A DNA stretch of 64,000 nucleotides from Magnetovibrio sp. (GTDB taxonomy: Bacteria; Pseudomonadota; Alphaproteobacteria; Rhodospirillales; Magnetovibrionaceae): positions 1 to 64,000 of the forward strand of contig JAPHSY010000002.1 in NCBI GenBank assembly GCA_026196495.1, read 5' to 3'. Shown piece after piece: positions 5,974-56,203 of the stretch. Positions within the stretch are counted from its first letter, which is position 1. Each line of letters begins with the position of its first letter. A program made the position numbers and the translations under genes. The notes below the pieces were generated by a model. It was not told the DNA's origin and did not search any database. It worked only from the letters and a program-made list of their open reading frames with translations.

Positions 5974-7392
5974 ATGAGCACCATTGTACCAGTTATCTTA
6001 TCCGGCGGATCCGGCACACGTTTGTGGCCGATGTCACGCACGTTGTATCCCAAGCAACTTCAGTCGCTGTATTCTGATCGATCTATGTTGGTGGAAACCG
6101 CAGCAAGGGTTTCGGGTGAAGGCTTTGGTGAGCCCATAATCATTTGCAATGGTGAGCATCGTTTCATTATTGCGGAACAAATGTTAAAGGCAGGCCTCAA
6201 TCCACGCTCCATTGTTCTTGAGCCTGTGGGCCGAAATACGGCACCAGCTGCAGCGGTGGCAGCTATGATGCTGATTGAAAGTGATCCTGATGCGCTGATG
6301 CTATTGATGCCATCAGATCATTTGATTTCAAAACCGGATGCATTTTTGGCGGCCTGCGCGCAGGCGCAAATAGCAGCCAATGAACATGCCTTGGTTACAT
6401 TTGGAATTGTCCCCAGTGCGCCTGAAACTGGCTTTGGGTATATTCGTCAAGGTGAACCCCTTGTGGGCTATGACGGTTGTTATCAAGTTCAAAACTTTGT
6501 TGAAAAACCTGATTTGGCCACAGCCAAAGGCTACCTTGACGAAGGCGGGTATTTCTGGAATAGCGGTATTTTCTTATTTAAAGCCCAGAATTATTTAGAT
6601 GAATTGGGGCGTTCACACCCAGAAATGATAAGGCTTTGCCAACAAGCGGTCGATAAAGGTCAAAGAGATATGGATTTCTTCCGTCTTGATGACAAAAGTT
6701 TCCATGATATTGTCGGCAATTCGATAGATTATGCGGTGATGGAAAAAACAGACCACGCTGCAGTTGTTCCCGTTGATATGGGCTGGGATGATGTTGGGTC
6801 ATGGTCCGCGCTATGGGCTGTTGGTGAAAAAGATGTGGATCAAAACATCCTTGTTGGCGACGTTGTTACCCACGATGTCAAAAATTCTTACGTGCGAAGC
6901 TCCGGTCAATTGGTGGCCTCAATTGGCATGAAAGATACCATTATCGTTGCCACGGATGATGTTGTCTTAGTTGCTGATAAGGATCGCGCCCAAGACGTTA
7001 AAGAAGTTGTGGCGGAACTCCAAAATCAAGGTCGGGATGAGCATGTTGTCCACAAACGTGTATATCGCCCCTGGGGCTGGTATCAGTGCATGGATATGGA
7101 AAGCCATTTCCAAGTCAAACAACTGTCCATCAAACCAGGCGGGATTTTAAGCCTTCAAAGTCATCAGCACCGCTCAGAACATTGGGTTGTTGTATCTGGC
7201 GCTGCAAGTGTGGTGCGTGGTGATGAAGACATCAAATTGGAAGTCAACCAATCCATTTATATTCCGGCAGGTGTTAAACATCGTTTGGAGAACAAAGGAC
7301 AAGTTGATTTGCGTATTATTGAAGTGCAAACAGGCAGTTATTTGGGCGAAGATGATATCGAACGTTTCGAAGATATCTACGGGCGTCATTAA
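5974..7392 (+). CDS. manC: Mannose-1-phosphate guanylyltransferase / mannose-6-phosphate isomerase
   Basis: 472 residues from ATG 5974 (an in-frame TTG at 5968 has no better ribosome site). N-terminal nucleotidyltransferase domain: VILSGGSGTRLWPMSR at 7-22, then LEPVGRNTAPA, LLMPSDHLI and FVEKPD. C-terminal cupin domain with RPWGWYQ, SLQSHQHRSEHW and the HRLEN segment, as in type II phosphomannose isomerases. It makes mannose 6-phosphate from fructose 6-phosphate and GDP-mannose from mannose 1-phosphate. The phosphomannomutase that links the two steps is not in the window. GDP-mannose feeds Gmd and Fcl at 11-13 kb. Full length for the family. Confidence 0.95.
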   Translation: MSTIVPVILSGGSGTRLWPMSRTLYPKQLQSLYSDRSMLVETAARVSGEGFGEPIIICNGEHRFIIAEQMLKAGLNPRSIVLEPVGRNTAPAAAVAAMMLIESDPDALMLLMPSDHLISKPDAFLAACAQAQIAANEHALVTFGIVPSAPETGFGYIRQGEPLVGYDGCYQVQNFVEKPDLATAKGYLDEGGYFWNSGIFLFKAQNYLDELGRSHPEMIRLCQQAVDKGQRDMDFFRLDDKSFHDIVGNSIDYAVMEKTDHAAVVPVDMGWDDVGSWSALWAVGEKDVDQNILVGDVVTHDVKNSYVRSSGQLVASIGMKDTIIVATDDVVLVADKDRAQDVKEVVAELQNQGRDEHVVHKRVYRPWGWYQCMDMESHFQVKQLSIKPGGILSLQSHQHRSEHWVVVSGAASVVRGDEDIKLEVNQSIYIPAGVKHRLENKGQVDLRIIEVQTGSYLGEDDIERFEDIYGRH

Positions 7393-36173: not shown

Positions 36174-37733
36174 TCAGAAACGGAAGTAAATAAATTCGCT
36201 GATTCGATTGAGGCTTAATAGGCAGATCACACCAATTCCAGCCATCGAAAATACCCAAAATGGGGTGGGGCGCCATTGCCATTTTGTTTCGGAAGGTGAT
36301 GGAAGCTGTCCATTGTAAACCGGCAGGGCGGGCTTGTAGCGTGCGAACAGTTGTTGTGTATTGGGGGCTATGACACAAATCAGACCAGCTATTAGAATGA
36401 GCGGTATGCCCAACGTGCGCCAATCTTCCAAAGTGACGATATTGTTTCCATCAAATACCACACCCAGACTGCTGAGAATTCCCGCCAGCGACCCCAGGCG
36501 TTGTTCTGCAGGTGCGGGGAAGGACAGTCCGTTGAACCCTGCCATACTCTTCCAAACGATGATGGCTGCATCTAGTGTTTCTGCACGAAACACCACCCAA
36601 GCCGCCGTTACAGCAATAAACGTGGTTGCCCAGGATAGGGTGGTGAACACATGCCTCAAAGGACCTACTTCAAATCGGATTTCTTTGGTAGCCTGTCGCC
36701 AAGCATGATTGATGACCAAGTATGTTCCATGCAATGCGCCCCAGATGATAAAGGTCCATCCCGCACCATGCCATAAGCCGCCAAGCAACATTGTGGCAAG
36801 GAGTGCGGCAAACATTCGCGGTGCACCGTGGCGATTGCCCCCCAGTGGGATGTACAGATAGTCCAACAAGAAGCGTGACAAAGTCATGTGCCAGCGGCGC
36901 CAGAACTCAACGATGTTTTGTGCTTTGTAGGGGGAATTGAAATTGATGGGCATTTTTATGCCAAACATTAATGACAGCCCGATGGCCATATCTGAATAAG
37001 CAGAAAAATCAAAATACAGTTGGAAGGTATATGCCAGTGCTGCGGCCCAGGCTTCAAAGAATGTGAGTGTCTCACCTTGTAATGTGGCATCAAAAACGGG
37101 GGTCGCAACAAGGGCTAGGTTATCTGCAATCAGAACCTTTTTGGCGAGACCTATGATCAAAATAGACAAGCCAATTGAAACATTGCGGCTGTTGATGCCA
37201 CGTGCTCCCTTGGCAAATTGGGGCAACATTTCCGCATGATGAATGATGGGGCCAGCGATAAGGTGTGGAAAAAATGTCACGAACAAAGCGTAGCGTGAAA
37301 AGTTAACTTCTCGGGCCTGCTGACGATAGGAATCAACCAAAAATGCAATTTGCGTAAACGTGTAAAAGGATATGCCCGCAGGTAATACCACGTTAATGGC
37401 AGGGGGAGGCATATCAGCAAATACAAACAGATTCTCAATGACAAAATTGGAATACTTGAAGTAGCCCAGTAATCCCAGGTTCGTCGCAATAGCGGCAAAC
37501 AGAAGACGTGGGTCTGGGCTTCGGGCTAGGTGTATTCCGACACTGAAATTGAATGCAATGGACGGCAAGATAACGAGTAAATGCCATGGTTCACTAATGC
37601 CATAAAACACGAGTGAAATAAAAGCCAGCCAACCAATACCCGCAGAGCGCCCACCAAGGCGTTCCAAAAACCAATACCCAAATAAAGCTATGGGCAGGTA
37701 CAGTAGTAAAAATTCGTAAGAATTAAAAAGCAT
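36174..37733 (-). CDS. MBOAT O-acyltransferase (AlgI-like), first copy
   Basis: 519 residues with about ten membrane spans. Family hallmarks NIVEFWRRWHMTLSRFLLDYLYIPLGGNRHG near 275 and LLGGLWHGAGWTFIIWGALHG near 315, the latter with the catalytic His. FNSYEFLLLYLPIALFGYW at the start is common in this family. It moves acyl groups (often acetyl) across the inner membrane for O-acylation of exported polysaccharide. The downstream SGNH-like gene is the probable transferase partner. Acyl donor and target glycan unknown. Confidence 0.88.
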   Translation of the reverse strand: MLFNSYEFLLLYLPIALFGYWFLERLGGRSAGIGWLAFISLVFYGISEPWHLLVILPSIAFNFSVGIHLARSPDPRLLFAAIATNLGLLGYFKYSNFVIENLFVFADMPPPAINVVLPAGISFYTFTQIAFLVDSYRQQAREVNFSRYALFVTFFPHLIAGPIIHHAEMLPQFAKGARGINSRNVSIGLSILIIGLAKKVLIADNLALVATPVFDATLQGETLTFFEAWAAALAYTFQLYFDFSAYSDMAIGLSLMFGIKMPINFNSPYKAQNIVEFWRRWHMTLSRFLLDYLYIPLGGNRHGAPRMFAALLATMLLGGLWHGAGWTFIIWGALHGTYLVINHAWRQATKEIRFEVGPLRHVFTTLSWATTFIAVTAAWVVFRAETLDAAIIVWKSMAGFNGLSFPAPAEQRLGSLAGILSSLGVVFDGNNIVTLEDWRTLGIPLILIAGLICVIAPNTQQLFARYKPALPVYNGQLPSPSETKWQWRPTPFWVFSMAGIGVICLLSLNRISEFIYFRF

Positions 37734-38833: not shown

Positions 38834-39747
38834 GGGCGGTATCCAAAACAAGCGTGCAGAATGTTATTCGTAAACATTTCTGCACCTGTAATGTTGAGAT
38901 GATCGGGGTCTAAGAATACGTCGTTATCATATGCAGACGTAAAATTGAGGTATTTGACACCGACGTTTTCCGCCAATGTTTTATAGAATTCAAGACCCTG
39001 CTGATAAGAAGTGGTCTCTTTACTGATGCGCAAATAGTTTGAGCTGACGGGAAACGAAACCAAACAAACATCTATGCCGGTCTCTTTTAGTTTTTGGATA
39101 ACGTCAGTGTATGTCTTTGCATAATGTGTTTTGGTTACATCATTGACCGGCAATTGAAGCCCAGCGCGGATTGATGCTTTTTTATCTGCCTCATAGACTG
39201 ATAAGTCGCTAAACCGAATATCAGCATTGGAAATTTTGTTTTTTGCATCACGTGGACTGGGAAACAGAAAACTCAGGATTAAGCTTTTCCAATAGTTCAA
39301 AAGGTACTGGCGATAAACCGGACGATAGAATTGCAACCATGGTTTTTCAGGATCAAACAGTTCGCTGCGCATCAACGATTGATTGCGGCTTAGGCGGTAA
39401 CTGGCAAAGTGATGCGGATCGGCTTGAATGATGACGCCTTTGCTTGTGGGGCGCTTGGCAAAAAAATGTGCTTTTTCGACGATGGTAATTAAGTTGTCTC
39501 CGGCCGTGGAAAAATTTTCAAACTGATCGTGGGTCACAAAACCATTGTCACCTCGTGAATCTGCAAATCCAGCAAAGGGCTTATTTGATGAATGCAGCCG
39601 AGAGGTGATGTCATCAAATGTGCTGTGGGGTACGACAGTGGTCCGCACGATTATTTCGCTGCCAATAACAAACACCACGGCACCCACCATGAACATCGTG
39701 ATGAAGCCAATGGAGAAGCGTTTAGAATTGGAAATAGATGAACTCAC
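38830..39747 (-). CDS. Membrane-anchored SGNH-like protein paired with second MBOAT
   Basis: 305 residues. One N-terminal membrane span (about 12-35) then a periplasmic domain. FADSRGDNGF near 61 may be a Ser block (GDS-like order changed), and FLDPDHLNITGAEMF near 282 gives the D-x-x-H pair of SGNH hydrolases. It overlaps the second MBOAT gene by 26 bases and the GT4-like gene by four. It is not closely similar to the other SGNH-like protein (34949), so the two pairs may use different acyl groups or acceptors. Confidence 0.6.
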   Translation of the reverse strand: MSSSISNSKRFSIGFITMFMVGAVVFVIGSEIIVRTTVVPHSTFDDITSRLHSSNKPFAGFADSRGDNGFVTHDQFENFSTAGDNLITIVEKAHFFAKRPTSKGVIIQADPHHFASYRLSRNQSLMRSELFDPEKPWLQFYRPVYRQYLLNYWKSLILSFLFPSPRDAKNKISNADIRFSDLSVYEADKKASIRAGLQLPVNDVTKTHYAKTYTDVIQKLKETGIDVCLVSFPVSSNYLRISKETTSYQQGLEFYKTLAENVGVKYLNFTSAYDNDVFLDPDHLNITGAEMFTNNILHACFGYRP

Positions 39748-41302
39748 CAGATTGCCCTTGCAATAGGATGGTTGTGAGAAACAGTGCGGCTAAGCCGAAA
39801 GCGGCCCCCGCTTTTAAGGATGGCTGCCAGGCCCAAACTCTTTTGCCCAATATCTGGGGTTTGCGATTTGTGTCGAAATCCAAAGCCGGATCGAATTTGC
39901 ACATAAATTCCTGTGTGCTGGGCATTAGCCAAACAAGCATCAATACACCAACGATCCAAACCAGTTGCATACCGCCACCGTAATGCGGAATGTTGGCAAA
40001 CCCCACACCCAGTGAGGCTATGCTTGTCCCCATATCCCCCATAATTTCCTGGTAATGGGGGGGGAGGACAATGCCGTTAAACGTGAAGAGGCCCTTATAA
40101 ATACGTATGGCGCTATCAAGACTTTCGGCGCGGAATAAGGTCCATGCAAAACTAACAGAAAGCAAAGTCACGATGCGTCCGGTCCAACGTTTGGTGCGCC
40201 CCAGACGACGGCCTTCATGCTCATCGCCATGGCCGACGATGTTCCACCACAGATGATTTAAGGCTAAGTAAGCACCGTGCAGGATGCCCCACAAAACAAA
40301 TGTCCACCCTGCTCCATGCCACAGTCCGCCGAGGGCCATAACAATCATGAGATTGGTGTAGCGACGCGCACGTCCGTTTCGGTTTCCCCCAAGAGGGAAA
40401 TAAACATAGTCACGGAGAAAACGAGATAACGTCATATGCCAACGTCGCCAGAAATCAACAATGTTGGTTGCTTTGTATGGCGAGTCGAAATTCAGTGGCA
40501 AGCGGATACCAAACATACGCGCGAGCCCAATGGCCATATCGGAATAACCGGAAAAATCGAAGTAAATTTGGAAGGTGAAGCTAATTACCCCAACCCAGGC
40601 TTCGATAAATGTTGGGTCCCCGCCCAGTTGTGCGCCATTGAATACACGGTCGGACCAAAATGCCATTTTGTCGGCAATCACCACCTTTTTAAACAGGCCA
40701 ATGGTGAAGATGGTCAGTCCAACCGATATATTGCTCCACAATTCATTTCCACGGGCAAAGGGCTTTTTAAACTGACCCATCATTTCACTGTGATGGACAA
40801 TAGGCCCCGCAACAAGTTGGGGAAAGAACGTGACAAACAGACTGTAAGATAGCAAATCAGTCTCATCAGCTTGTTTGCGGTATACATCCACCAAATAAGC
40901 AATTTGCTGGAAAGTGAAAAATGAAATCGCTAATGGCAATATGATGTATATGCCATCGAATGTTTTGCCACTTAACGAGGTGAACGTATCAATAAAAAAG
41001 TTGGTGTATTTGAAAAAGCCAAGAGCGCCTAAGTTGGTTGAGACACCAATAATAAGCAAACTTTTGGCAGTTCGGCTTTGTTGCGTCTGTTTGGATAATA
41101 TGCGCGCAATAACGAAGTTGAAAACGATCGATGATGTAATGAGCAGCAGGTAAGCGGGTTCCCACCAGCCATAGAAAAATAGCGAACTGACCACCAAAAA
41201 ACCGATACTCGCACGGGTGTGGCCTGAGGCATTGATAAACACAAAGCCGCCCAGAACGATGGGCAGAAAGATCAATAAAAATTCTGGAGAGTTAAAAAGC
41301 AA
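39722..41302 (-). CDS. MBOAT O-acyltransferase (AlgI-like), second copy
   Basis: 526 residues with about ten membrane spans. NIVDFWRRWHMTLSRFLRDYVYFPLGGNRNG near 280 and ALGGLWHGAGWTFVLWGILHG near 320 (catalytic His). Clearly paralogous to the copy at 36174 by shared motifs, yet different in the N-terminal half, which suggests older divergence rather than recent duplication. It is 12 bases downstream of a GT4 gene. Likely O-acylation of the same polymer at another position. Confidence 0.88.
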   Translation of the reverse strand: MLFNSPEFLLIFLPIVLGGFVFINASGHTRASIGFLVVSSLFFYGWWEPAYLLLITSSIVFNFVIARILSKQTQQSRTAKSLLIIGVSTNLGALGFFKYTNFFIDTFTSLSGKTFDGIYIILPLAISFFTFQQIAYLVDVYRKQADETDLLSYSLFVTFFPQLVAGPIVHHSEMMGQFKKPFARGNELWSNISVGLTIFTIGLFKKVVIADKMAFWSDRVFNGAQLGGDPTFIEAWVGVISFTFQIYFDFSGYSDMAIGLARMFGIRLPLNFDSPYKATNIVDFWRRWHMTLSRFLRDYVYFPLGGNRNGRARRYTNLMIVMALGGLWHGAGWTFVLWGILHGAYLALNHLWWNIVGHGDEHEGRRLGRTKRWTGRIVTLLSVSFAWTLFRAESLDSAIRIYKGLFTFNGIVLPPHYQEIMGDMGTSIASLGVGFANIPHYGGGMQLVWIVGVLMLVWLMPSTQEFMCKFDPALDFDTNRKPQILGKRVWAWQPSLKAGAAFGLAALFLTTILLQGQSGEFIYFQF

Positions 41303-43740: not shown

Positions 43741-45159
43741 TTAACCTTCGCGTGTTTTGCTTGATTTATGCGCTTTATCATAAATTTTGCGTAAAACCGA
43801 ATCTATTACTTCGCTATATGGCTTACTTGGGGGAGATACGAAATAGCTAATATCACGTTCAAGCACTTTGAGGTAATCCAGGTCTTCGGTGCTGGCCAAT
43901 AATTCTACTGATTTTTCAATTAGTTCCTTTTGGCTGGTTGCCACAGGAAATGTGTCGGATCGAAAAATCTCTTCGAAGTGCACCATGCCGGAAAAAATTT
44001 CAAAAATACTGCCTTGTTGCTCTTGATCCAGCGGCATGAAGCAAAGTGGCGGTTTCCCGTGTAATGCAGCTTCGAGAATGATGGTTGATAAGGGTGAAAT
44101 AACGGCATCTATGTGTGTCAACACATCGTGGGTGCGGCTATAAGGCGCATCTAAGAAAATGCGGCAATCACCTTTTGCAACCCGTTCCACATACGGTGCC
44201 ATGCTGCGTTCAATTTCAACATGTTTCCAATTGGCTGATTGCATTCGTTCACCATCCTTGCCGCATTCTCCCCATGGATGGGGGCGGTATAGGATGCTGG
44301 TGTTTTTTAAGATACCTTGTTCGCAGGCCTCATTGAGAACACTTAGGTGGCTATATTCATCAACTTTTTTGCTCGAACCAGCATACATCAAAATTTTGTG
44401 ATTGGGGTCAATACTGTGTTCTGCACAAAATGCCTCACGGTCCAGGCTCGGAGGTTGGCGAAAGATATCAAACTGTGCTGCGCCTGCTTTGATGAGGTTT
44501 TCGTCTGGAATGTTCATATAACGTTTACAATGGGCGGCTGTCTGCTCCCCCCACACGACGCATTTATCAGGGATACCGGCAACGGTCTGTTTGATGCTGG
44601 GGTTGTCCCATGAATTCATGATCAAAACAGACGGGATATCCTGCTGAGCACTTTCTGCTATCACGTCGTTGATGAAGTATCCGTCAAACGTACTGGGATG
44701 AATGACTAGATCGGGACGTTCTTCTTTCAGCAAGGTTGTCAGTTCGGTACAGGGGTTCTTTTTCAGCCGTGAAAAAATATTGCGTTTGAAAATTTGAAAG
44801 ATGCCAGGCAAGCCATACACAGTCAGTTGAACGGATGCCTTCCAGCCCAACAAGTGACGGACATACCGACGTCGTTCACCGTAATCTCGACCAGGACGTA
44901 GCATGAGTTGCTGCGCTTGGAACAATCGTTTCCACAACCAAATGCGTTGGCGGGATAAAGTCAGCCGACGAAATGGTGCGTTGAGCGGGAGGTTCGTCGG
45001 GTCAAGTGTTATACGGTTCCAATCTTCTGGTGGAAAAATAAAGGTTACATCATGGTTTTGGGTGAGCTCTTTTAGGGCCCCTGTCAAAACGAAGTGACGG
45101 ATGCAAATGTCTGATTCAATAAAGACAAACAGCTTCATACGCTTGCTTTGTTCAAGCAT
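43741..45159 (-). CDS. GT-B-like glycosyl- or glycerophospho-transferase, uncertain family
   Basis: 472 residues from ATG 45159 (MLEQSKRMKLF), overlapping the cytidylyltransferase stop by eight bases; ATG 45138 is an alternative. MKLFVFIESDICIRHFVLTGALKEL, LVIHPSTFDGYFINDVIAESAQQDIPSVLIMNSWDNPS, KILMYAGSSKK, ILYRPHPWGE and DAVISPLSTIILEAALHGKPPLCF resemble GT-B folds of the epimerase/glycerophosphotransferase or Kdo-transferase kind. The HP and S-S-T-x-x-x-E-A segments would bind donor phosphate. Donor is perhaps the CMP-sugar made by the next gene; this is inference. A 156-bp gap follows. Confidence 0.6.
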   Translation of the reverse strand: MLEQSKRMKLFVFIESDICIRHFVLTGALKELTQNHDVTFIFPPEDWNRITLDPTNLPLNAPFRRLTLSRQRIWLWKRLFQAQQLMLRPGRDYGERRRYVRHLLGWKASVQLTVYGLPGIFQIFKRNIFSRLKKNPCTELTTLLKEERPDLVIHPSTFDGYFINDVIAESAQQDIPSVLIMNSWDNPSIKQTVAGIPDKCVVWGEQTAAHCKRYMNIPDENLIKAGAAQFDIFRQPPSLDREAFCAEHSIDPNHKILMYAGSSKKVDEYSHLSVLNEACEQGILKNTSILYRPHPWGECGKDGERMQSANWKHVEIERSMAPYVERVAKGDCRIFLDAPYSRTHDVLTHIDAVISPLSTIILEAALHGKPPLCFMPLDQEQQGSIFEIFSGMVHFEEIFRSDTFPVATSQKELIEKSVELLASTEDLDYLKVLERDISYFVSPPSKPYSEVIDSVLRKIYDKAHKSSKTREG

Positions 45160-45868
45160 CGCTACTGTCTTTCTGTGCAAACATGAAATCTGCCAACAGT
45201 AAATCGTACGGCGTGTCAATATTGGCCATTGTTTCGTTGATCACCTGGGCACCGGTTCGTTTGCCCAAAATGGTTTTCTGGTTAACTAAGCATTCACGTG
45301 TAAAGGCATAAGCAACCCCATTTCGGTGATAAACCGGTGTGAGCTGCTGGCGTGCAATGATGTTAGCCCCATCGGGATCATAAAATGCCAGTTCGTTGTC
45401 ATCTATGGTGAGCTGTTTGAGGGGGTGTCCCTTTGAATCCGTTTCCGAAACACTCCACACAGCATCCCAATTTCCTTTGATTAACATTTCCATGCAATCG
45501 GTTACGTGTTTTGCCGTGCGCATGGGTGATGTCGGTTGCAGCATTAAAATGATATCGTACTGAATTTGATCAATGTCTTCCATCGTTGCCAAAGCATGAG
45601 ACATCACTTGGTAGTCGCTGATACGATCACCGGACAACTCTTCCGGACGGCGAAATGGTGCATCAACGCCTGATTCTTCAGCAATGCGTGCAATTTCATC
45701 GTGGTCGGTGCTGACAACGGCTCGATCAATTTCTGGGATTTGGCTCACGACATCACCAACCAAGGCAACCATGGGGCGGCCGTTTACGGTTTGAATGTTT
45801 TTAAGTGGAATACCTTTCGAGCCCCCGCGTGCGGGTACGACTGCGAGGATACGCTTGTTACCAATCAT
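45152..45868 (-). CDS. CMP-sugar (acylneuraminate-type) cytidylyltransferase
   Basis: 238 residues, the usual NeuA/PseF/LegF length. ILAVVPARGGSKGIPLKNIQTVNGRPMVALVGDVV (CTP-binding P-loop-like motif), VVSTDHDEIARIAEESG, ILMLQPTSPMRT and NRNGVAYAFTRE-like segment HRNGVAYAFTRECLV. It activates a nonulosonic-type acid with CTP. Its neighbours (synthase-cupin 47613, HAD phosphatase 46966) are the upstream steps. Whether the sugar is Neu5Ac, Leg, Pse or a KDN-like acid cannot be told. Confidence 0.9.
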   Translation of the reverse strand: MIGNKRILAVVPARGGSKGIPLKNIQTVNGRPMVALVGDVVSQIPEIDRAVVSTDHDEIARIAEESGVDAPFRRPEELSGDRISDYQVMSHALATMEDIDQIQYDIILMLQPTSPMRTAKHVTDCMEMLIKGNWDAVWSVSETDSKGHPLKQLTIDDNELAFYDPDGANIIARQQLTPVYHRNGVAYAFTRECLVNQKTILGKRTGAQVINETMANIDTPYDLLLADFMFAQKDSSDA

Positions 45869-45910
45869 GAAATAAATCCAACTTTGATGCTGATGCGCAG
45901 GTTAACGATC

Positions 45911-46903
45911 TCATAGGGTGTCGATGTCGTTTTCCAACTCAACAATATGGTCCGGGTGGTTGTTGGGTTGACCTACTTTTCGCGATGTATTGCTTGAATA
46001 TACCAGTGCGTCTTGGCGATCATAAATCTGATCACATCCATCGCAGAGTAAGCCACACCCATCATAAGAATTGTCGCGGTGGATTTGGCGAATATGTTCC
46101 ATTTTTTCGCCAGTCAAAATATCTTGCAATGACATTTCATTGAGATTGCCGACAATGAGTTTGTGATTGAAGTCAAAACAACACACAGTCAAATCACCGT
46201 TGACCTTTACCGAAGGATTGCCTTTGAAAGGTCGTCCGCAAGAATGCTGATTGAGGTGTTGATCACGAGAGCCAGAGCGGAATGCATATTGTTCGATTGA
46301 GTCTGCGCCGCCGTAGTTGTGTGGGCGCCAGATGGCGATTTCATCAACCCGTGGCTCCCAATATTCTTTCCATGCTTCCGCTTCACCTTGGTTTTCATCC
46401 AGCATCAAAAAACTCATCATGGTATAGGGCCGCTGGCCAGGGGGGCGTTCCAAAAGGTTGTGGATATTATCCATGACCTTTTCATATTTTAGTTTGCCTC
46501 CGTGTACAGCTTCATAACTTTCCTTGCTAAATCCGTAATTGCTAATGCGGATGGTATCAAAATACTTCAGAGCCAAATCGAATTTTTTGCCCTGCATCGC
46601 GTGTGCGGTGGTGGACGTGTAGATTTTGATTTCTGGATATTTATCTTTTACGTACGCTAGCTTTTCATCAACTTTTGGGTCTAAGAATGAATCGCCAAAT
46701 CCAGTCAAATCAAGGGAGATCACCCCAAGCTCTGCTGCTTGGTCCATGGCCTTGATGAACAGGGGCGTGCTCATATGGGACCACTTCTCATCGTATTCTT
46801 CACGCGGGCACATGCAGCAATTGGCGCCACAGTGGGTGGAATTTTCGATGGTCAGTTCCCGGGAGGTGATTTCCCAGTCGCCGTTTTCGTTTTGATGGAT
46901 CAT
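45911..46903 (-). CDS. Radical SAM/SPASM protein (second)
   Basis: 330 residues. THCGANCCMCPREEYDEKWSHM near 23 (CxxxCxxC), LDLTGFGDSFLDPKVDEKLAYVK, TIRISNYGFSKESYEAVHGG. C-terminal Cys-rich region SCGRPFKGNPSVKVNGDLTVCCFDFN and GCGLLCDGCDQ binds extra clusters. It sits inside the nonulosonic-like cassette, between the CMP transferase and HAD genes. This suggests it modifies that sugar or a precursor, for example by dehydrogenation or epimerisation. Not the same subfamily as the 42502 protein by eye. Confidence 0.82.
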   Translation of the reverse strand: MIHQNENGDWEITSRELTIENSTHCGANCCMCPREEYDEKWSHMSTPLFIKAMDQAAELGVISLDLTGFGDSFLDPKVDEKLAYVKDKYPEIKIYTSTTAHAMQGKKFDLALKYFDTIRISNYGFSKESYEAVHGGKLKYEKVMDNIHNLLERPPGQRPYTMMSFLMLDENQGEAEAWKEYWEPRVDEIAIWRPHNYGGADSIEQYAFRSGSRDQHLNQHSCGRPFKGNPSVKVNGDLTVCCFDFNHKLIVGNLNEMSLQDILTGEKMEHIRQIHRDNSYDGCGLLCDGCDQIYDRQDALVYSSNTSRKVGQPNNHPDHIVELENDIDTL

Positions 46904-46965
46904 TGTTTATGTAGGCTCCGGTACAGCCGCAAGGCTTCAAGAACGAGCGTGTTTTACCCTATGTG

Positions 46966-47607
46966 TTATGCCAAGGATAGAAGTGCGGGGAGTTGCGCAA
47001 GATCATCAAGCTTATCTCCTCCGTCCTTAACGGATCGTGCCTCAAAAACAGGGACAAAGTTACATCCTGTTTTTATCGCACTATCCGCGTCATCCTGCCC
47101 ATCCCCTACAACCACAGTGTTGCAAGGTCTAACCTGTTCGCTGTTGAGGATGCTCAGAAGGTTTTTCTCTTTTGCGATCGGGCCCCCATATACGCCCCTG
47201 AAATATGGACTTAACTCCATTGCGTCAACGACCGTTTTCAAAGCATTTTGGGGTGTTGCGGAATTCATGAACATATTGATATTCAAATCGAACAGGGTGT
47301 TGAGGGCTGTTTTCGCACCCTTCATATAGTTACAGTTCATGATTTCTTCAAAGCAATACTGCGAGTAGCGTTCAGTCAGCGTCAGGCCTTCTTCTTTGGC
47401 AAGGCCAAGGTATTCGGTAAAGGTTTTAAAAATCGCGTGACGATCCCCTGGGGAAGGGCCATTAAAGATGTTGTCCAACACTTTATGGCTTCCTGGAATA
47501 TCCTGCGTCACGGCATAAAAACCATCGCGTTTGATGTGATTGGAATCTACCAATGTGCCGTCAAAATCAAAGACAACGCATTTGATATTTTTATCCAAAC
47601 CAAACAT
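46966..47607 (-). CDS. HAD-family phosphatase
   Basis: 213 residues from ATG 47607, five bases after the synthase stop; a longer frame would overlap that gene. HAD motifs: CVVFDFDGTLVDSNH (motif I, catalytic Asp pair), MFMNSATPQNALK (II), GGPIAKEKN (III Lys) and VVVGDGQDDADSAIKTGC (IV). Placed between the synthase and the CMP transferase, it may remove a 9-phosphate, as in the NeuNAc-9-P or KDN-9-P routes. That role is inference; PGP/beta-PGM-like phosphatases have many substrates. Confidence 0.8.
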   Translation of the reverse strand: MFGLDKNIKCVVFDFDGTLVDSNHIKRDGFYAVTQDIPGSHKVLDNIFNGPSPGDRHAIFKTFTEYLGLAKEEGLTLTERYSQYCFEEIMNCNYMKGAKTALNTLFDLNINMFMNSATPQNALKTVVDAMELSPYFRGVYGGPIAKEKNLLSILNSEQVRPCNTVVVGDGQDDADSAIKTGCNFVPVFEARSVKDGGDKLDDLAQLPALLSLA

Positions 47608-47612
47608 TAATC

Positions 47613-49163
47613 TTAGGCCTCGGATGAGCCCGTTACGATATCGACGAGTTGAATACGGCCCCAATGATCAACGGTTGTCTTGCGTTCCGAGCGTTCGAGT
47701 TTTTCAATTTGGGGATCGCGATAGACAGAATCGTTGTTGAAATGTGTTGTTGAGACTTCTTCAAACACACACCCTGTATCGGTCCAAAAACGGTGCCACA
47801 CGCCAGGCATCACCAATTGGGTATCTCCTGGTTGTAATGTTTTTGTACGACCGTCCAATTCAGTTTTCAATTCCCCCCACAAGACTTGGAAAGTTTCTTC
47901 CTTGCGTTTGTGGTAGTGTGATGGGTGGTGCTGCCCCGGCAATTGGACAAGAATTTTTTTACAATACTCACGGTTAATGCAGCTGATGATAACAGTGCCA
48001 GTTTCCAGGAAGTTCTTGAAACCATAGTGGTGTGAGTATTCAACTTCGAACTCACTACCCAATTGAACGCCAGCGACATTCAATAAGGCTTTAACTTCGT
48101 GAACGGCTGATTTAAGCACCTGAACGTCAGATACCGGTGGGATGGTTACGTTGTCATAGCCAACAGGATCGTTGATGTTGAGGGTATCATTAAGGATGAT
48201 ACCGTCTTTCCACTCACCACTGGACATCTGTCCCTCTTGGTAGGGCATGGCGAAAAAGACGTCGTCACGACTTAGGGGCTGCCCGGCTTCAACTTCCGTT
48301 TTGATGAAAATACCGCGTTTTAAACCATCAATGGCATCGACTTCTTGAGGAATTGGCGCCAAGCGCGATGTGGAACCGCAAAGTGTGTTTGCTTTCTTCC
48401 AGGCTTTAACCCATTCGTCGACTTGTGCGGGTGTTGATGAATAAGCGTTCAAGCTAATCTCATCCGTGACCAGACCAATATGGCGTTCAAACATTTGTGC
48501 GCCCTTGGCAACGGCTGCGATGATCGGGTCGGTATCATCTTGGTCTTCGTGGGTGGACCAGCCGATGACTTTGCTTGGGTAACGGTGCTTGAACATTCCA
48601 ATGTTGCTGATGTTACACAGCTCACTGGGGGTCGGATAAATCGGCACGCAGTGCATGATGGCGTAATCTGTTCCACGGTGGTCAAAGAAACTCACCATAT
48701 CATCAACTTCGGATTGTTTGATTCCGCCAGTGGAAAAAATGACCGGTTTTCCGGTTTTGGCAACGGCTTCAAGTAACGGCCAGTCTCGTGCTGAACAACT
48801 TGCAACTTTGATGATATCGAAATCCATATCGACAATTAAATCGACTGATTCCTCATCAAAAGGCGTGCACATGGAAATCATGCCAGCGTTTGTTACGGCA
48901 TCCTTCAGTTGACGGTAGTCATCCGCAGACAAGCGCGTGGAAATGAAACGCGGAATGTGTTTGTTATCGCTATCCACTTTATGGTCTGGATGGATAAAGG
49001 TCTCAATATTGCGGAACTGGAATTTAAGGGCAGCACGTACCCCATGCTTGGCAATCACTTCACCATGTTGTCGAACAATGTTAAGGCCGTGTTGAAGGTC
49101 ACCTTGGTGATTGTTAGCCATATCCAGAACAAAGAGGTCTTGGAAGTCAAAATTATTAATCAT
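47613..49163 (-). CDS. Nonulosonic-acid synthase-like protein (NeuB family) fused to a C-terminal cupin
   Basis: 516 residues from ATG 49163; an upstream ATG at 49187 lacks a ribosome site. Residues 1-280 are a NeuB/PseI TIM barrel: FVLDMANNHQGDL, ALKFQFRN, ISMCTPFDEESVD, IIKVASCSARDWPLL, FSTGGIKQSE, HCVPIYPTPSEL, GWSTHEDQDD and MFERHIGL. A partial SAF-like stretch follows (AGQPLSRDDVFFAMP). Residues about 375-470 are a cupin: HHPSHYHKRKEETFQVLWGEL and PGVWHRFW give a metal-binding His/Glu set. The enzyme condenses PEP with a sugar aldehyde; the cupin may bind or isomerise the sugar. Several NeuB motifs are altered, so the product could be unusual. Confidence 0.8.
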   Translation of the reverse strand: MINNFDFQDLFVLDMANNHQGDLQHGLNIVRQHGEVIAKHGVRAALKFQFRNIETFIHPDHKVDSDNKHIPRFISTRLSADDYRQLKDAVTNAGMISMCTPFDEESVDLIVDMDFDIIKVASCSARDWPLLEAVAKTGKPVIFSTGGIKQSEVDDMVSFFDHRGTDYAIMHCVPIYPTPSELCNISNIGMFKHRYPSKVIGWSTHEDQDDTDPIIAAVAKGAQMFERHIGLVTDEISLNAYSSTPAQVDEWVKAWKKANTLCGSTSRLAPIPQEVDAIDGLKRGIFIKTEVEAGQPLSRDDVFFAMPYQEGQMSSGEWKDGIILNDTLNINDPVGYDNVTIPPVSDVQVLKSAVHEVKALLNVAGVQLGSEFEVEYSHHYGFKNFLETGTVIISCINREYCKKILVQLPGQHHPSHYHKRKEETFQVLWGELKTELDGRTKTLQPGDTQLVMPGVWHRFWTDTGCVFEEVSTTHFNNDSVYRDPQIEKLERSERKTTVDHWGRIQLVDIVTGSSEA

Positions 49164-49210
49164 GTGTGACTCACTACTTCCACTCATTTAAACAGACAGA
49201 GTTTCAAGGA

Positions 49211-50308
49211 TTATACAGATTGCAATGCAGATAATGTATAACCTGCATCGTAGTTGATTTTAACTGTGATATTTTCGCGGGCAGATTTCCGTGCTGCGGC
49301 AACCACTAGCATGGTATCCAGGCCACGATCTATAGAAATTGAAGAATCTTTCGGATTGCTTTTTAAAGCGGCTTCGACGTGCGTCAATTCCTTAATGAAG
49401 TCATCAGGGCGGGTTTTTTGGAAAAGATGTTCTTGGCTGTCGCCATCATGTCCACCTTCGATAACGGCGTCAGTTCCTGGCTGATAGCCGTTGCGCCATT
49501 CAACATATCCCTTTGAGCCTTGTGCGCGCGCCCACTTTTTCGTGGGGTGGGTGAAAAGGTCTTGTACCACCCGGCCGCACAAACCGTTCTCGGTCTTGAT
49601 ATTGAACAGGCACATTTCGTCGTAGTCGATGTTGTCGCCCGTGACGAATTGCATCATGGCCTGTACTTCGCTGACACGTCCTGCACCAGTGGCGTGGGCA
49701 AAATGCTGCCACAGGTTCATGGCGTGGGATTGTTCGCTGGTGGCACCGCCGCCGAGTTCTTTTTGGCCCAGGTAACAATCTTCAGGGCCGCTCAGCCATG
49801 GATGTGCGGCAAACAATTCTCCAAAAAACTCACGAAACTCAACGTCCAACGTATAGATGTCTCCAAGTGCTCTCGACGTCAAAATTTCTGTCATCTTTTC
49901 GGTCGCCATACCTACGGTATTGTCATAGCCCGTAAAAACGGCAACGTTCTGCTTCTCAGCGGCGTCATAAAATCCCTGCGCCCCATTCAGATCAGGAGAG
50001 CAGAAAGGTTTTTCCATAAAGATGGCTTGTGGTTTTTCCTTCAACGCTTCCATCGCCAGCTCGATATGTGTGTGGGGCGGAGTGCCTACCATGATCATAT
50101 CGTATTCGCCTTTGGGGACTTCATCGTTGGTGAATAAACGAATGTTGTTATCCCAGTGGCCATAGCGTCCTGGGAAGATTTCATTTTTGGTACGCTCCAG
50201 GGCTTGTGGGTCGAGGTCGCACAAATCGACGCTCCAACCCAACGTGCGGCTGGCATGCGAAAGGTGGTTGCCGATAGAGCCTGCGCCTAAAATTTTGACC
50301 TTATACAT
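49211..50308 (-). CDS. Gfo/Idh/MocA-family oxidoreductase
   Basis: 365 residues. Rossmann GAGSIGNHLSHASRTLGW near 5, MVGTPPHTHIELAMEAL, AIFMEKPFCSPDL (the EKP motif with catalytic Lys near 98), and DVEFREFFGEL in the C-terminal domain. It uses NAD(P) to oxidise or reduce a sugar nucleotide or free sugar. Adjacent to the synthase-cupin gene (47-base gap), it is probably a step making or altering the nonulosonic precursor. Substrate unknown. Confidence 0.8.
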   Translation of the reverse strand: MYKVKILGAGSIGNHLSHASRTLGWSVDLCDLDPQALERTKNEIFPGRYGHWDNNIRLFTNDEVPKGEYDMIMVGTPPHTHIELAMEALKEKPQAIFMEKPFCSPDLNGAQGFYDAAEKQNVAVFTGYDNTVGMATEKMTEILTSRALGDIYTLDVEFREFFGELFAAHPWLSGPEDCYLGQKELGGGATSEQSHAMNLWQHFAHATGAGRVSEVQAMMQFVTGDNIDYDEMCLFNIKTENGLCGRVVQDLFTHPTKKWARAQGSKGYVEWRNGYQPGTDAVIEGGHDGDSQEHLFQKTRPDDFIKELTHVEAALKSNPKDSSISIDRGLDTMLVVAAARKSARENITVKINYDAGYTLSALQSV

Positions 50309-52240: not shown

Positions 52241-53371
52241 TTATTCAATCGGCTGGCGATGGATCCAGTTGCCGTGATTATCTTTTTGCCAGACATCATC
52301 ATTGCGGAACTTTTCAAGGGTTTCGTCGAAATCTTCGCGTGACATTTCAAGGAAGTCGCGAACTCGTTCAAGGTAGTGTTCGGAACATTTCCCATCATAT
52401 TTTTTCACCAACTCAATTGCTTCTTCCCTTTTGACGGAGCCTTCTTCCATCTCGCGGATGTCATGGCTGAGCTGTTGTGTGGCAAAGGAAAATCCAAACT
52501 TCAAATATTTCAGATATTGATGAACGAAAATGAAGTCTTCGTCCAGGCAGGCATATGGGTGAAGTGATCCGGTGTTCGCCGGGTCTGCACCAAAGCCATC
52601 GCGGCATTTGAGCCCCTTGTCGATGGAGAACTTGGCATTGGGCGTCACACCCCAATCATCAATATAATAACCCAAATAGATGAAACGAATTTTGTTGGCT
52701 TGCATCTGATCGACGCTCGGTACTGAATAAAAGTGCAGATCGTTTTCGGTAAACCCTTCATCAATGAAGTGGGATAAATCCCCACCGCCAATGGTGTTGA
52801 GCATGGCAAAGTTGGTGGCGTCGCCATCTGTGGACCCGCATTCACTGCCAGATGTCACAAACGGGTTTTCACCACCACAAGCAAGCGGAATGCCATGAGT
52901 GATGGCCATGCGCGGCATACTCGTGATGAGGAAGAACTCAGTCGCTTTTGCCCAGTTGCCGAATTTTTTAAATGCAAACTGCATCATCTTGCGGCATGTA
53001 TCGGGGGCAACATTGATGGTTTCCAGATCAAAACCACATTCGATGATATTGGCGAGGTTGTATGCACCGAGGTCTGTCATTTGTTGCGGGATATAAGTTG
53101 CACAAACCAACAACGGATTAAGTCCAAGTTCACGCAGGAAGTAAGCTAGGCGGACACTGTCTTTGCCGCCGGAAACGCCGAGTACGCAATCGTATTTACC
53201 GGTCCTGTTGGCTTTGGCCCATTCGGCAATTTCTTTGATTTCACGTTTGCGTGCGTCCCAGTCGACGGGAACTTTGTTCAGGGCATATTGGCACGGGGTG
53301 CAGATGCCGGACTCGTCAAAGACCTGACCCGGGCGGGTGTCGGGCTCCAGGCAGTTCTTACACCAACGCAT
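52241..53371 (-). CDS. N-acetyl sugar amidotransferase (WbpG/PseA family), copy 1
   Basis: 376 residues. Zinc-binding Cys at 4, 7, 24 and 27, then the PP-loop ATP site VLGVSGGKDSVRLAYFLRELG near 65. CYPQ-like ATYIPQQ and the C-terminal DIREMEEGSVKREEAIELVKKYDGK are typical. Family members use ammonia from HisH2/HisF2 to turn an N-acetyl group into an acetamidino group on sugars such as Pse or Leg. It overlaps the second WbpG-like gene by 14 bases and is 12 bases from the ABC gene. The ligand sugar is unknown. Confidence 0.88.
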   Translation of the reverse strand: MRWCKNCLEPDTRPGQVFDESGICTPCQYALNKVPVDWDARKREIKEIAEWAKANRTGKYDCVLGVSGGKDSVRLAYFLRELGLNPLLVCATYIPQQMTDLGAYNLANIIECGFDLETINVAPDTCRKMMQFAFKKFGNWAKATEFFLITSMPRMAITHGIPLACGGENPFVTSGSECGSTDGDATNFAMLNTIGGGDLSHFIDEGFTENDLHFYSVPSVDQMQANKIRFIYLGYYIDDWGVTPNAKFSIDKGLKCRDGFGADPANTGSLHPYACLDEDFIFVHQYLKYLKFGFSFATQQLSHDIREMEEGSVKREEAIELVKKYDGKCSEHYLERVRDFLEMSREDFDETLEKFRNDDVWQKDNHGNWIHRQPIE

Positions 53372-54668
53372 TGTTCGTCACCTCATCCAGAAAAGTTCTT
53401 GTTGTCCATTCCTTGGCTGGTGGTCGGTGTGGGCCTTCTTCGTGGACGTACCCTTTGCCGATCAGCATGTATTGGTTTTCATCTTGTTCGGGGGCACGCG
53501 AAGGCGTGATGTGAAATTGACACTCTTCCTTCGGTGTGATGTCGCCAGCGTCGGTTGTGTCCAGAACGCTGTTCTTTTGGCGCCAAGTCGAGCCGTCCTT
53601 TTCCCAAAACAGCGGATTGCGGTGTTGGTCGATAAGTTCCCACAGTTCATCATGGCTCATACCCTGCCAGTCGAGAAACAGTTGTTCATCCGGTGCATCG
53701 TGATCGGCATAAGCCTTGACCAAATCCAACCCTTGTTGACGGCTTAAACGTTTGAGACGAATTTCGCGGGTTGCATGATCCGTGACCTTGCCGTATCCGC
53801 ACTTGGCGTACTTGATGCGGTCATGCAAGCCACTGTAATGGTGACAGTCGATATCGTTGTAGGTATCGAAGGTACCTGCTTGAGAGTGGGTTTCGTATCC
53901 AAAATTGCGGATCATACGTTCATGCTGTGCTTTGCTGTCCCAACGAATAAAATTGTTGAGATAAATACCGCGCACACCGACGCGTTGCAGGTCACTGTCG
54001 TCAGGATAAAAAAACGTATCCAAATCGAGGTCGTTCAGTTTTGGATGCGCCCTGAGAAGGTCTTCGGCTTCCATGCCCATAAGGTCATGGTTCTTGCGGT
54101 ACTTGCGCGTCATTTCGACTTCTTCAGTATGCGAAAACATGCCAACTTGATCGACACCTTGATGTGCACCCCAGATGATCAAGGGGATTTTGTAGTGTAC
54201 AGCCGTTTTCACAGGGAATGCTGTGCGACCGGCAAGGACATGCCAATAGATGCTGCCCATAGATTCCAAAGTGGCCCGGTTCAATGCGCGGATGGTCTGT
54301 GGTTTGGTGGTGCGTTCGACCAGGTCACAGTTGAAAGCAATGCGCATGTACGCCGTATTGCGAATGCCCAAGGGCGTATTGTAGTGCTTGTTGTAACTGA
54401 CCAGCAGGGGCTTCAGCTTCAAGATATTTTTGACAACATGAACGATAAAATAGCTGTCTCTTCCACCGCTCACAGGGACGATGCAATCATAGCTCTGACC
54501 CGGTGTGCGATATGCATCGGCAATGGCTTCCAGTCGTTTCCAGCGTGTGCGCCAATCGAAGATATCTTTTTCTTCGTGAACGCGGCATCCACTACAAATA
54601 CCTTCGTCATCAATGACCAGGTTTAACGGATGGTTTTCTGGATAGAGACAGCGCTTGCAATACTTCAT
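53358..54668 (-). CDS. N-acetyl sugar amidotransferase (WbpG/PseA family), copy 2, longer
   Basis: 436 residues. Zinc Cys at 4, 7, 25 and 28; PP-loop IVPVSGGRDSYFIVHVV near 63; HYNTPLGIRN and DIDCHHYSGLHDRIKYAKCGYGKVTDHATREIRL follow. A C-terminal extension (about residues 370-436) is absent from copy 1. Its start overlaps the hisF2 stop by one base (TAATG). Two copies with one HisF2/HisH2 pair suggest two amidination steps or two target sugars. Copy 2 is translationally tied to hisF2, so it is probably the main partner. Confidence 0.87.
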   Translation of the reverse strand: MKYCKRCLYPENHPLNLVIDDEGICSGCRVHEEKDIFDWRTRWKRLEAIADAYRTPGQSYDCIVPVSGGRDSYFIVHVVKNILKLKPLLVSYNKHYNTPLGIRNTAYMRIAFNCDLVERTTKPQTIRALNRATLESMGSIYWHVLAGRTAFPVKTAVHYKIPLIIWGAHQGVDQVGMFSHTEEVEMTRKYRKNHDLMGMEAEDLLRAHPKLNDLDLDTFFYPDDSDLQRVGVRGIYLNNFIRWDSKAQHERMIRNFGYETHSQAGTFDTYNDIDCHHYSGLHDRIKYAKCGYGKVTDHATREIRLKRLSRQQGLDLVKAYADHDAPDEQLFLDWQGMSHDELWELIDQHRNPLFWEKDGSTWRQKNSVLDTTDAGDITPKEECQFHITPSRAPEQDENQYMLIGKGYVHEEGPHRPPAKEWTTRTFLDEVTNNALV

Positions 54669-55522
54669 TATGATGCCTCCTTGATGGCGGAGGGAAGGTG
54701 CATTTGATTGCTCAAAACACGTCCATTGTTTGTTTGTTCGATGGCGTCATAATGCAAAACCCGGTGTTTTCGAACGGCATAATCAAGGTCGTGCAGGGCG
54801 TGTTTCACCAAGGCGATACTGTGTTCGAAGTGTTGGAAATAGTTTCCTGCAGCAGCGGCAGCACAGGGGCCTTTCAAAACTTCGGCAAAATCGTTTGGGG
54901 CACCCGCACCACCCAGTGAGATCAGAGGCACATCCAATTGTTCGTGGGCTTTGTGTACCAAATCTAGATCATAGCCTGCACAGGTCCCGTCTTGGTCGAC
55001 GGAAGCCAAGAGAATTTCTCCCGCGCCCATCTCTTCTGCACGTGCCGTCAGGGCAAAAACATCTTCTCCGGCAAGATCCGGACGGGCGTTGGAATACGAA
55101 GCCCAAATTCCAGCTGTTTTATCTTTCACCGCGTCGATGGAGACGATGATGCATTGGCGGCCATAAATATGAGCCGCTTCTGATATGAACTGTGGGTTTT
55201 CCAGGAAGACTGTATTGAGAACGATTTTATCGGCGCCGTTTGCCATCAGCTCGGCGATCTGTTCCATATTTTTTATGCCACCGCCCACGGCCAAGGGAAT
55301 GCGGGCAGCACGCGCGACTTTTTGTACCAAGGCTGGATCAATGGATTGTTCGTTTCGGCTTGCACCGATGTCCAAAAGGACAATTTCATCAGCCCCCCAA
55401 CGGTCAAGATATTCAGCAGTGATGACGGGACAGCCAATTGGCAAGTAACGTGAAAAGCCGTAGCTTTGCACGGCGATGCCGTTGCGGACCAAGATGGTGG
55501 CGATGATGCGTTTTTTGACCAT
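54668..55522 (-). CDS. hisF2: HisF-like cyclase-type subunit for sugar amidination
   Basis: 284 residues, TIM barrel. VKKRIIATILVRNGIAVQSYGF replaces the HisF start RIIPCLDVKDG, so the catalytic Asp11 of true HisF is Leu here, while the second Asp region IIVSIDAVKD is kept. LAVGGGIKNMEQIAELMANGADKIVLNTVF and LISLGGAGAPNDF bind phosphate. The loss of Asp11 argues against imidazole-glycerol-phosphate synthesis. It fits HisF2/WbpI-type partners that pass ammonia from HisH2 to WbpG. Its context, between hisH2 and WbpG copy 2, agrees. Confidence 0.88.
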   Translation of the reverse strand: MVKKRIIATILVRNGIAVQSYGFSRYLPIGCPVITAEYLDRWGADEIVLLDIGASRNEQSIDPALVQKVARAARIPLAVGGGIKNMEQIAELMANGADKIVLNTVFLENPQFISEAAHIYGRQCIIVSIDAVKDKTAGIWASYSNARPDLAGEDVFALTARAEEMGAGEILLASVDQDGTCAGYDLDLVHKAHEQLDVPLISLGGAGAPNDFAEVLKGPCAAAAAGNYFQHFEHSIALVKHALHDLDYAVRKHRVLHYDAIEQTNNGRVLSNQMHLPSAIKEAS

Positions 55523-55552
55523 GGTAATCGTTTTATTTCTAACGGCTGAAGG

Positions 55553-56203
55553 TTAAGCAGCTGCGGAAGCGATATCTAAGAAGTTGTTCAAAAGGATGTG
55601 CCCGGACGACCCGCTAATTTCAGGGTGGAATTGCACCCCCATGGTATTGCCCTGTTCGATCACCGCAGTGAATGTAGAACCATATCGACAAGTCGCGGCA
55701 GAAACCGAATTGGCCGTGTCGGTATAGGCAAAGCTGTGATCAAAATAAAAGCTGTCGTGCTCATCCAAGCCGCGCAACAGGCGACTATCGGAATTCGTAA
55801 TTTGAATGCTGTTCCAGCCCACATGTGGCAAGCGGTGCGTGTGGTCGTGACTGAGTTCTTGGACCCGGCCATCCAGAAAACTCAGACCTTCATGCCAGCC
55901 ATATTCTTGGGAACCTTCCAGTAGCATTTGCATGCCAAGGCATATGCCGAGAAACGGTTTGCGCTGGTCTATGACGACTTTACGCAGAACCTGATCTAAG
56001 TTTTTGGCGCGTAAGCTGTCCGTGGCGGCTTGAAAAGCGCCAACACCGGAAAGCACAATCGCGTCAGCATTCTCGATTTCGTCTATGACGGAAGTCTTCG
56101 ACACCTCAACACCACGGTCCAAGCGTCCAAACGCGTTCATCAAAGATCCGATGTTGCCGATGCTGTCGTCGATGATGACGATTTTGATGTTTGAACTTGT
56201 CAT
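55553..56203 (-). CDS. hisH2: HisH-like glutaminase subunit for sugar amidination
   Basis: 216 residues. Class I glutamine amidotransferase: LSGVGAFQAA, LGICLGMQMLLEGSQE (nucleophile Cys near 88), VGWNSIQ, FYFDHSFAY and GVQFHPEISGSSG (His and Glu of the triad). It releases ammonia from glutamine for HisF2 and the WbpG-like proteins. Nine bases from the 56213 gene and 30 from hisF2. Histidine biosynthesis is unlikely given the altered HisF partner. Confidence 0.9.
   Translation of the reverse strand: MTSSNIKIVIIDDSIGNIGSLMNAFGRLDRGVEVSKTSVIDEIENADAIVLSGVGAFQAATDSLRAKNLDQVLRKVVIDQRKPFLGICLGMQMLLEGSQEYGWHEGLSFLDGRVQELSHDHTHRLPHVGWNSIQITNSDSRLLRGLDEHDSFYFDHSFAYTDTANSVSAATCRYGSTFTAVIEQGNTMGVQFHPEISGSSGHILLNNFLDIASAAA

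Follow-up and report, generated by a model that had tools for sequence, protein, structure and literature searches.

The subject of this report is a fused gene, and the short gene cassette around it, in 64,000 nucleotides of Magnetovibrio sp. DNA (contig JAPHSY010000002.1, positions 1 to 64,000), the whole of which is referred to below as the window. The gene encodes a synthase of the NeuB type that carries an additional cupin domain, and we put the probability at roughly one half that the protein is a bifunctional isomerase-synthase, which would convert a ketose into an aldose and condense the latter with phosphoenolpyruvate (PEP); after dephosphorylation and activation with cytidine monophosphate (CMP), the product would most likely be 3-deoxy-D-glycero-D-galacto-nonulosonic acid (Kdn), a deaminated sialic acid, or a relative of it, by a bacterial route that has received little study. 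All the reactions of this scheme, the presence of a phosphate, and the nature of the product are what we infer from the gene order and its conservation, the predicted folds, the residues kept and lost, and the phylogeny.

Predicted structure of the fused protein

The synthase part is a member of the NeuB family, scoring 145.6 bits with PF03102 (gathering score, 22.1), and it stays far under the equivalog models, with 138 bits for NeuB (TIGR03569; cutoff, 399.65) and 115.5 bits for PseI (TIGR03586; cutoff, 340.25). Ten standard-type sequences are likewise under the TIGR03569 cutoff, but at 258–351 bits. By sequence, the closest solved relative is 3g8r (280.6 bits), while the N-acetylneuraminate synthase NmNeuB (1xuu) reaches 85, and both Pfam and NCBIfam name parts of the fusion, not the fusion as a whole.

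An AlphaFold model of the whole protein, of moderate quality (predicted local distance difference test, pLDDT, 72.7; predicted template modeling score, pTM, 0.59), aligns with 3g8r residues 5–340 over 328 residues (Z 34.6, root-mean-square deviation 4.1 Å) and with NmNeuB residues 7–349 (Z 28.0), the latter alignment reaching residue 348–349 of the fusion. The Pfam SAF model does not reach an E-value of 0.001 on the fusion, and the first-pass annotation of this DNA, made from the sequence alone, had described the SAF region as seemingly partial and the cupin as a replacement of the C-terminus. Because the model aligns with NmNeuB through residue 348, however, barrel and SAF domain both look complete; a partial SAF domain is ruled out by this alignment with the NeuB enzymes, and the cupin is an extra domain placed behind a NeuB–SAF unit that ends at about residue 349.

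Modeled alone (pLDDT 80.4, pTM 0.76), the cupin finds its best fold matches in D-lyxose isomerases, at Z 16.6–17.0: 7nzo (Z 17.0 over 141 residues, 2.1 Å, 26% identity), 2y0o (16.7), and 7nzq (16.7), and the structures matched include complexes with D-mannose (7nzq) and D-fructose (7nzp). Next come an E. coli isomerase (Z 15.1), L-ribose isomerases (13.3–14.5), and archaeal phosphomannose isomerases (about 12), whereas the remaining cupins listed have Z scores of 11 or less. At the sequence level, the alignment of the cupin with 2y0o spans both motif regions (E 1.2e-6, or 1.9e-10 with a profile), and the whole protein obtains 32.7 bits with PF07385 (gathering score, 20.8), although no single stretch passes 0.001; the equivalog for D-lyxose/D-mannose isomerases, NF051472, gives 27.8 bits against a cutoff of 350. 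In the profile search, a generic cupin (quercetin dioxygenase) outscores 2y0o over stretches of about 53 residues, and by profile alone short matches to generic cupins score equally well or better; a generic cupin is nevertheless ruled out, as the fold match with the lyxose isomerases stands above that with other cupins.

Regarding the residues that contact the sugar or manganese in the Thermofilum lyxose isomerase, passages of the structural report name K62, H75, H77, K86, E88, H143, E156, and D163 (PMC8378251). When placed by spacing and by the 2y0o alignment, seven of the eight have identical equivalents in the fusion (K411, H424, H426, K429, E431, H465, and E477), and the equivalent of D163 is displaced, perhaps to D486. 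These seven are invariant in 27 aligned fusions except for H424 (Gln in eight, all of the sister clade described below) and K429 (Arg in L048), and they are also kept in 11 further fusions, H424 being Gln in three. Judged from its model, the cupin looks like an isomerase-type domain, a point absent from the first-pass annotation.

Active-site residues of the synthase

In an alignment of the 27 fused sequences, window included, and in the numbering of NmNeuB, the PEP- and metal-binding residues K53, T110, K129, S154, S213, H215, E234, and H236 are kept in all 27. Two motifs described earlier as altered, GWSTHEDQDD and FERHIGL, are indeed present but do not represent losses, since GWSTHED (H213) and FERH (H236) retain the histidines that bind the metal. 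Three other positions have changed. Arg314 is kept in none of the 27 sequences and is replaced by Met, Ile, Phe, or Val (M314 in the window), Phe288 is likewise kept in none and gives way to a small or polar residue (G288 in the window), and Asp247 is Asn throughout. The 11 further fusions, from a second phylum, all keep K53, K129, H215, and H236 and are changed in the same manner at 247, 288, and 314.

In NmNeuB, according to passages of PMC6795526, Arg314 interacts with N-acetylmannosamine and may position its N-acetyl group, and Phe288 lines the site. The replacement of all three residues, as read from the alignment, argues for an acceptor that would lack an N-acetyl group, short of proof. 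Human NANS, which also makes Kdn-9-phosphate, appears to have no equivalent of Arg314 either.

Conservation of the gene neighborhood

Neighbors were counted as relatives of the window's proteins within 8 kb of each synthase gene, and the window was counted in its own group, where it matches itself. L042, whose contig breaks off within the synthase gene, was omitted from the count for the HAD-type phosphatase, and L046–L048 were kept out of the comparison of 14 with 31 loci. With L054 and L095, two entries for one locus, taken as a single case, there are 17 standard NeuB controls, and several of these have under 8 kb of DNA on one flank.

The 15 loci of the window's kind all have a relative of the Gfo/Idh oxidoreductase, that of L045 at only 54 bits, and 11 of the 14 uncut ones have a relative of the HAD phosphatase. 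A relative of the cytidylyltransferase accompanies 12 of the 15, and seven have a relative of the probable glycosyltransferase (43741–45159). Among the 31 comparison loci (10 of the sister clade, 4 without a cupin, and 17 with a standard NeuB), the HAD relative occurs in none, and the Gfo/Idh relative gives a single match, of 15 bits, at a standard NeuB locus. The corresponding Fisher values (4e-8 for HAD and 3e-11 for Gfo/Idh) take no account of how the loci are related and do not serve as probabilities here. In L046–L048, one of three has a HAD relative, at 47 bits, and two of three have the cytidylyltransferase.

The second-phylum set comprises all 11 fusions from the phylum of L025 besides that of L025 itself, and five of these were chosen after the fact as window-like by a cupin score of at least 188 bits. 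In the five, the HAD gene adjoins the synthase in every case, Gfo/Idh is present in all three that have upstream DNA, and the cytidylyltransferase is found in four; of the other six, four have a thiamine pyrophosphate (TPP) enzyme, one has a cytidylyltransferase match of 26 bits, and none has the HAD gene. Because the synthase-cupin architecture, which the first-pass annotation had recognized, recurs in 27 sequences, window included, and in 11 more, with conserved neighbors, the fusion is not the result of chance.

The radical SAM gene of the cassette behaves differently. Close relatives are found in only two of the 15 window-like loci: besides the window there is L039 (501 bits), where the gene sits behind the glycosyltransferase gene; for this reason we regard it as accessory, and a core step catalyzed by it is unsupported. 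Weaker relatives (38–83 bits) lie near six of the 17 standard NeuB genes (L052, L090, L092, L095, L096, and L097), of which they are a recurrent partner.

Phylogeny and related clades

In a tree of 58 sequences, which has no characterized LegI, the fusions belong to a family of 33 (27 fusions, four cupin-less proteins, one truncated sequence, and 3g8r) that is separated with 100/100 support and a stem of 2.31 from the standard NeuB, PseI, and SpsE sequences. The grouping with standard synthases that had been set beforehand as the refuting outcome thus did not occur for NeuB, PseI, or SpsE, and the earlier suggestion of an atypical route to an ulosonic acid gains support from a clade of its own.

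Within this family, 3g8r joins a sister clade of ten loci (L041 and L069–L077; 100/99), whose cupin scores are lower than those of the window-like loci, and L046–L048 form a third small group of fusions (98/98). In the DNA fetched for the sister clade, an acetolactate-synthase-like TPP enzyme adjoins the fusion in seven of the ten loci, a methyltransferase is present in five, a B12-binding radical SAM protein in seven, and a radical SAM/SPASM protein in four, while none of the ten showed a relative of the cytidylyltransferase of the window. The sister clade probably makes another product with the same scaffold. Four further synthase-cupin fusions, L110–L113, are outside the tree; together with L041 and L069–L077 they often stand beside a TPP enzyme, and many have Gln at H424.

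The cupin-less proteins (L049:2115-3380, L050:9574-10704, L051:2283-3371, and L078:9187-10275) have Ser at the Asp247 position, and TPP enzymes lie beside three of the four. With the window's cupin as the query, no stand-alone isomerase was seen near them, and six of their neighbor genes are of TPP, AAA, PhyH, aminotransferase, epimerase, and methyltransferase types by Pfam. As they form a separate clade, these loci are neutral for the isomerase reading. Among six other long NeuB open reading frames (ORFs) of the relatives, none has an isomerase domain; one of them, L083:1762-3333, has a GNAT acetyltransferase domain with NeuB fused behind it.

Counting hits at 1e-60, cupin-less proteins included, the family occurs in 10 of 385 genomes of the window's class and 13 of 398 of its phylum (the window's genome in both), in 11 of 297 genomes from L025's phylum, the genome of L025 among them, and in a candidate Uhrbacteria record. 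In plasmids, there are 91 matching records, all under 60% identity and none covering 80% of the query, and the one examined (Alistipes) is a standard neuC/neuB locus.

Proposed pathway and alternatives

In the scheme that we favor, the cupin would act as a metal-dependent aldose-ketose isomerase that turns a fructose form into an aldose with a 2-hydroxyl group, most probably mannose or its 6-phosphate. The NeuB–SAF unit would join this sugar to PEP, giving a 3-deoxy-2-ulosonic acid that is most probably Kdn-9-phosphate. Removal of the phosphate would fall to the HAD protein and formation of the CMP-sugar to the cytidylyltransferase; the next gene may encode the glycosyltransferase for this CMP-sugar, and the Gfo/Idh enzyme probably oxidizes or inverts one hydroxyl, earlier or later in the route. 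Kdn appears the likeliest product because the Kdn-9-phosphate synthases named in PMC6200933 use mannose-6-phosphate, because isomerases of this family bind D-mannose, and because a Serratia NeuB with an isomerase-type domain is linked to KDN.

Several observations weigh against this scheme. Three window-like loci lack a HAD relative inside the 8-kb limit: L026 has a His_Phos_1 phosphatase adjoining its Gfo/Idh gene, L023 has a HAD relative about 10 kb off, and in L043 none was seen. The window also contains an ORF at 5968–7392 with a MannoseP_isomer domain (165 bits). Judged from this domain, the part of the protein that was examined, it probably encodes a mannose-6-phosphate isomerase of type II, and the isomerase of the fusion may then be superfluous for the supply of mannose-6-phosphate; a type I enzyme was not found. 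Characterized D-lyxose isomerases act on free sugars, whereas the phosphatase implies phosphates. Moreover, no finding sets the chain length at nine carbons, and of the 9-phosphate route at which the phosphatase had been taken to hint, it is the phosphate intermediate that gains support, from the HAD counts given above. Plain Kdn synthesis does not include a Gfo/Idh step, and the Thermofilum isomerase, in passages of PMC8378251, prefers lyxose. Finally, position 314 in the five standard NeuB sequences of the alignment is Arg in two, Lys in two, and Ser in one; all five have Asp at 247, which makes the change at that position a cleaner marker than the one at 314.

A broader version of the scheme, which we advance only tentatively, is a self-feeding isomerase-synthase whose ulosonic acid falls outside neuraminic (Neu), legionaminic (Leg), and pseudaminic (Pse) acids, Kdn, and 3-deoxy-D-manno-octulosonic acid (Kdo), for example an acid of eight carbons made from lyxose-5-phosphate, or a Kdn altered at one carbon by Gfo/Idh, with the sister clade making a second sugar on the same scaffold.

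Rather doubtful is a pentulose substrate for the same two-step enzyme, with D-xylulose-5-phosphate passing through D-lyxose-5-phosphate to the phosphate of an eight-carbon, Kdo-like 3-deoxy-octulosonic acid. The closest folds are, after all, D-lyxose isomerases, one of them highly lyxose-specific in the passages of PMC8378251, and the window already encodes a mannose-6-phosphate isomerase domain. The sequence of phosphatase and cytidylyltransferase would also suit a Kdo-type route, and the KdsB models do score, weakly, on the cytidylyltransferase. PseF and NeuA score higher on it, however (130.8 bits with the PseF equivalog TIGR03584, under its cutoff of 205.7), its top PDB match is the CMP-N-acetylneuraminic acid (Neu5Ac) synthetase 6ifd, and the NeuB part is nearer in structure to the nonulosonate synthases (Z 28.0 for NmNeuB) than to the best Kdo-8-phosphate synthase (24.2).

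It is unlikely that the cupin, while catalytic, acts on the product, by epimerization, ring opening, or ketonization, and not in aldose supply. Many cupins modify sugars, and cupins of the KdgF type are in the fold list at Z about 10.4, but the lyxose isomerases lie some 6 Z units above these and the sugar-contacting residues are kept.

Still less is to be said for a conventional synthase of an N-acylated nonulosonic acid of the Neu, Leg, or Pse kind, with the cupin in a purely structural or regulatory role. Such an enzyme would agree with NeuB family membership and with the two WbuX-type amidotransferases and the HisF- and HisH-like genes of the same gene run, but not with the scores far under the NeuB and PseI equivalog cutoffs (although standard-type sequences are also under the former), the 100/100 clade, or the replaced Arg314, Phe288, and Asp247; in addition, no gene of NeuC, PseB, or LegB type is among the five of the cassette, the rest of the window not having been searched for these.

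The least probable reading is that of the first-pass annotation in full, namely a sugar acid itself modified by the radical SAM enzyme, whose gene does sit between those of the phosphatase and the cytidylyltransferase, but which has no close relative in 13 of the 15 window-like loci, takes another position in L039, and has weaker relatives at standard NeuB loci.

Gene layout and other glycan genes

The five genes of the cassette were found in the places and order first described, all on the minus strand (Table 1). The HAD_2 ORF as listed begins with a TTG at 47664, overlapping the synthase gene, and the ATG at 47607 is, from the sequence, the likelier start. The glycosyltransferase gene begins with an ATG at 45159 that overlaps the 3' end of the cytidylyltransferase gene, and its product is a candidate transferase for the activated sugar acid.

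Table 1. Features of the synthase-cupin locus in the window
Feature	Position	Strand	Evidence
Gfo/Idh/MocA oxidoreductase, heads the conserved module	49211..50308	-	Pfam GFO_IDH_MocA 8.5e-11
NeuB-cupin fusion, putative synthase-isomerase, 524 aa	47613..49187	-	Pfam NeuB 2.3e-42, Cupin_2 3.1e-12, Lyx_isomer 5.5e-8; predicted structures
Fusion, NeuB TIM barrel and SAF part, residues ~12-349	48141..49154	-	Model aligned to 3g8r
Fusion, cupin/isomerase-type domain, residues ~350-515	47643..48140	-	Predicted fold; K411, H424, H426, K429, E431, H465, E477
HAD_2 phosphatase, motifs DFDGT and GDGQDD	46966..47607	-	Pfam HAD_2 1e-13
Radical SAM/SPASM protein	45911..46903	-	Pfam Radical_SAM 1.3e-8, SPASM 1.4e-10; CX3CX2C at residue 25
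CMP-sugar-acid cytidylyltransferase	45152..45868	-	Pfam CTP_transf_3 1.3e-22
Probable glycosyltransferase	43741..45159	-	NCBIfam BFO_1060_trans 44 bits, cutoff 200; no Pfam match

The same gene run holds other glycan genes. The two WbuX-type N-acetyl sugar amidotransferases and the HisF- and HisH-like genes lie at 52241–56203, a combination known from the synthesis of acetamidino sugars, and two MBOAT O-acyltransferases, likely involved in glycan acylation, are found at 36174–37733 and 39722–41302. A second NeuB, of the standard type (351 bits with the NeuB model), is encoded on the same contig just beyond the window (G000:C40:70338-71117; L003, L052), and it has a radical SAM neighbor of its own, with 83 bits to that of the window.

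Comparison with known systems and significance

The nearest solved structure, 3g8r, is a structural-genomics entry for a putative SpsE from Chromobacterium violaceum, whose title gives no function. It belongs to the same synthase family and also lacks Arg314, Phe288, and Asp247; its solved chain, however, is 350 residues long and lacks a cupin part, although its clade mates carry the cupin. NmNeuB shares the barrel, the SAF domain, and the PEP and manganese residues, but it has no cupin, and its Arg314, Phe288, and Asp247 are those replaced in the fusion. The D-lyxose/D-mannose isomerases (2y0o of B. subtilis and 7nzo of Thermofilum) share the fold and seven of the eight named active-site residues, and they are stand-alone enzymes, in contrast with the synthase-fused domain described here.

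Two systems come close in their logic. In Serratia marcescens KL1 and KL2, as passages of PMC9000132 describe, a NeuB with an added COG1082 sugar-phosphate isomerase domain is required for sialic acid and capsule, and the capsules contain KDN at about 20:1 over Neu5Ac. By this published description, the added sugar isomerase-type domain and the link with KDN are shared with our proposal, whereas the isomerase is of the COG1082 type and the word phosphatase is absent from the main text of that paper. The known route to Kdn-9-phosphate, from mannose-6-phosphate and PEP (Bacteroides BT1714, Prymnesium, and human NANS; passages of PMC6200933), follows the same logic of synthase, phosphatase, and CMP-transferase, but those passages mention neither an isomerase fusion nor a Gfo/Idh partner. 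Among the literature matches listed, as far as their text was available, no description of a synthase-cupin fusion was found, and whole-word co-mentions of cupin and NeuB are apparently unrelated.

The fusion is a variant of the nonulosonate-synthase kind, and its product decides whether it is more than that. According to passages of PMC7845648, Kdn has been reported from about 50 polysaccharide structures of prokaryotes, for the most part environmental bacteria, and few characterized Kdn synthases appear in the parts of the literature examined. A widespread fusion that seemingly brings its own isomerase is a directly testable candidate for such a synthase. If the proposal is true, the synthase-isomerase design has been reached with two types of isomerase, a cupin here and COG1082 in Serratia, and it would allow sugar acids to be predicted from genomes in which these genes probably bear only the label of the N-acetylneuraminate synthase family.

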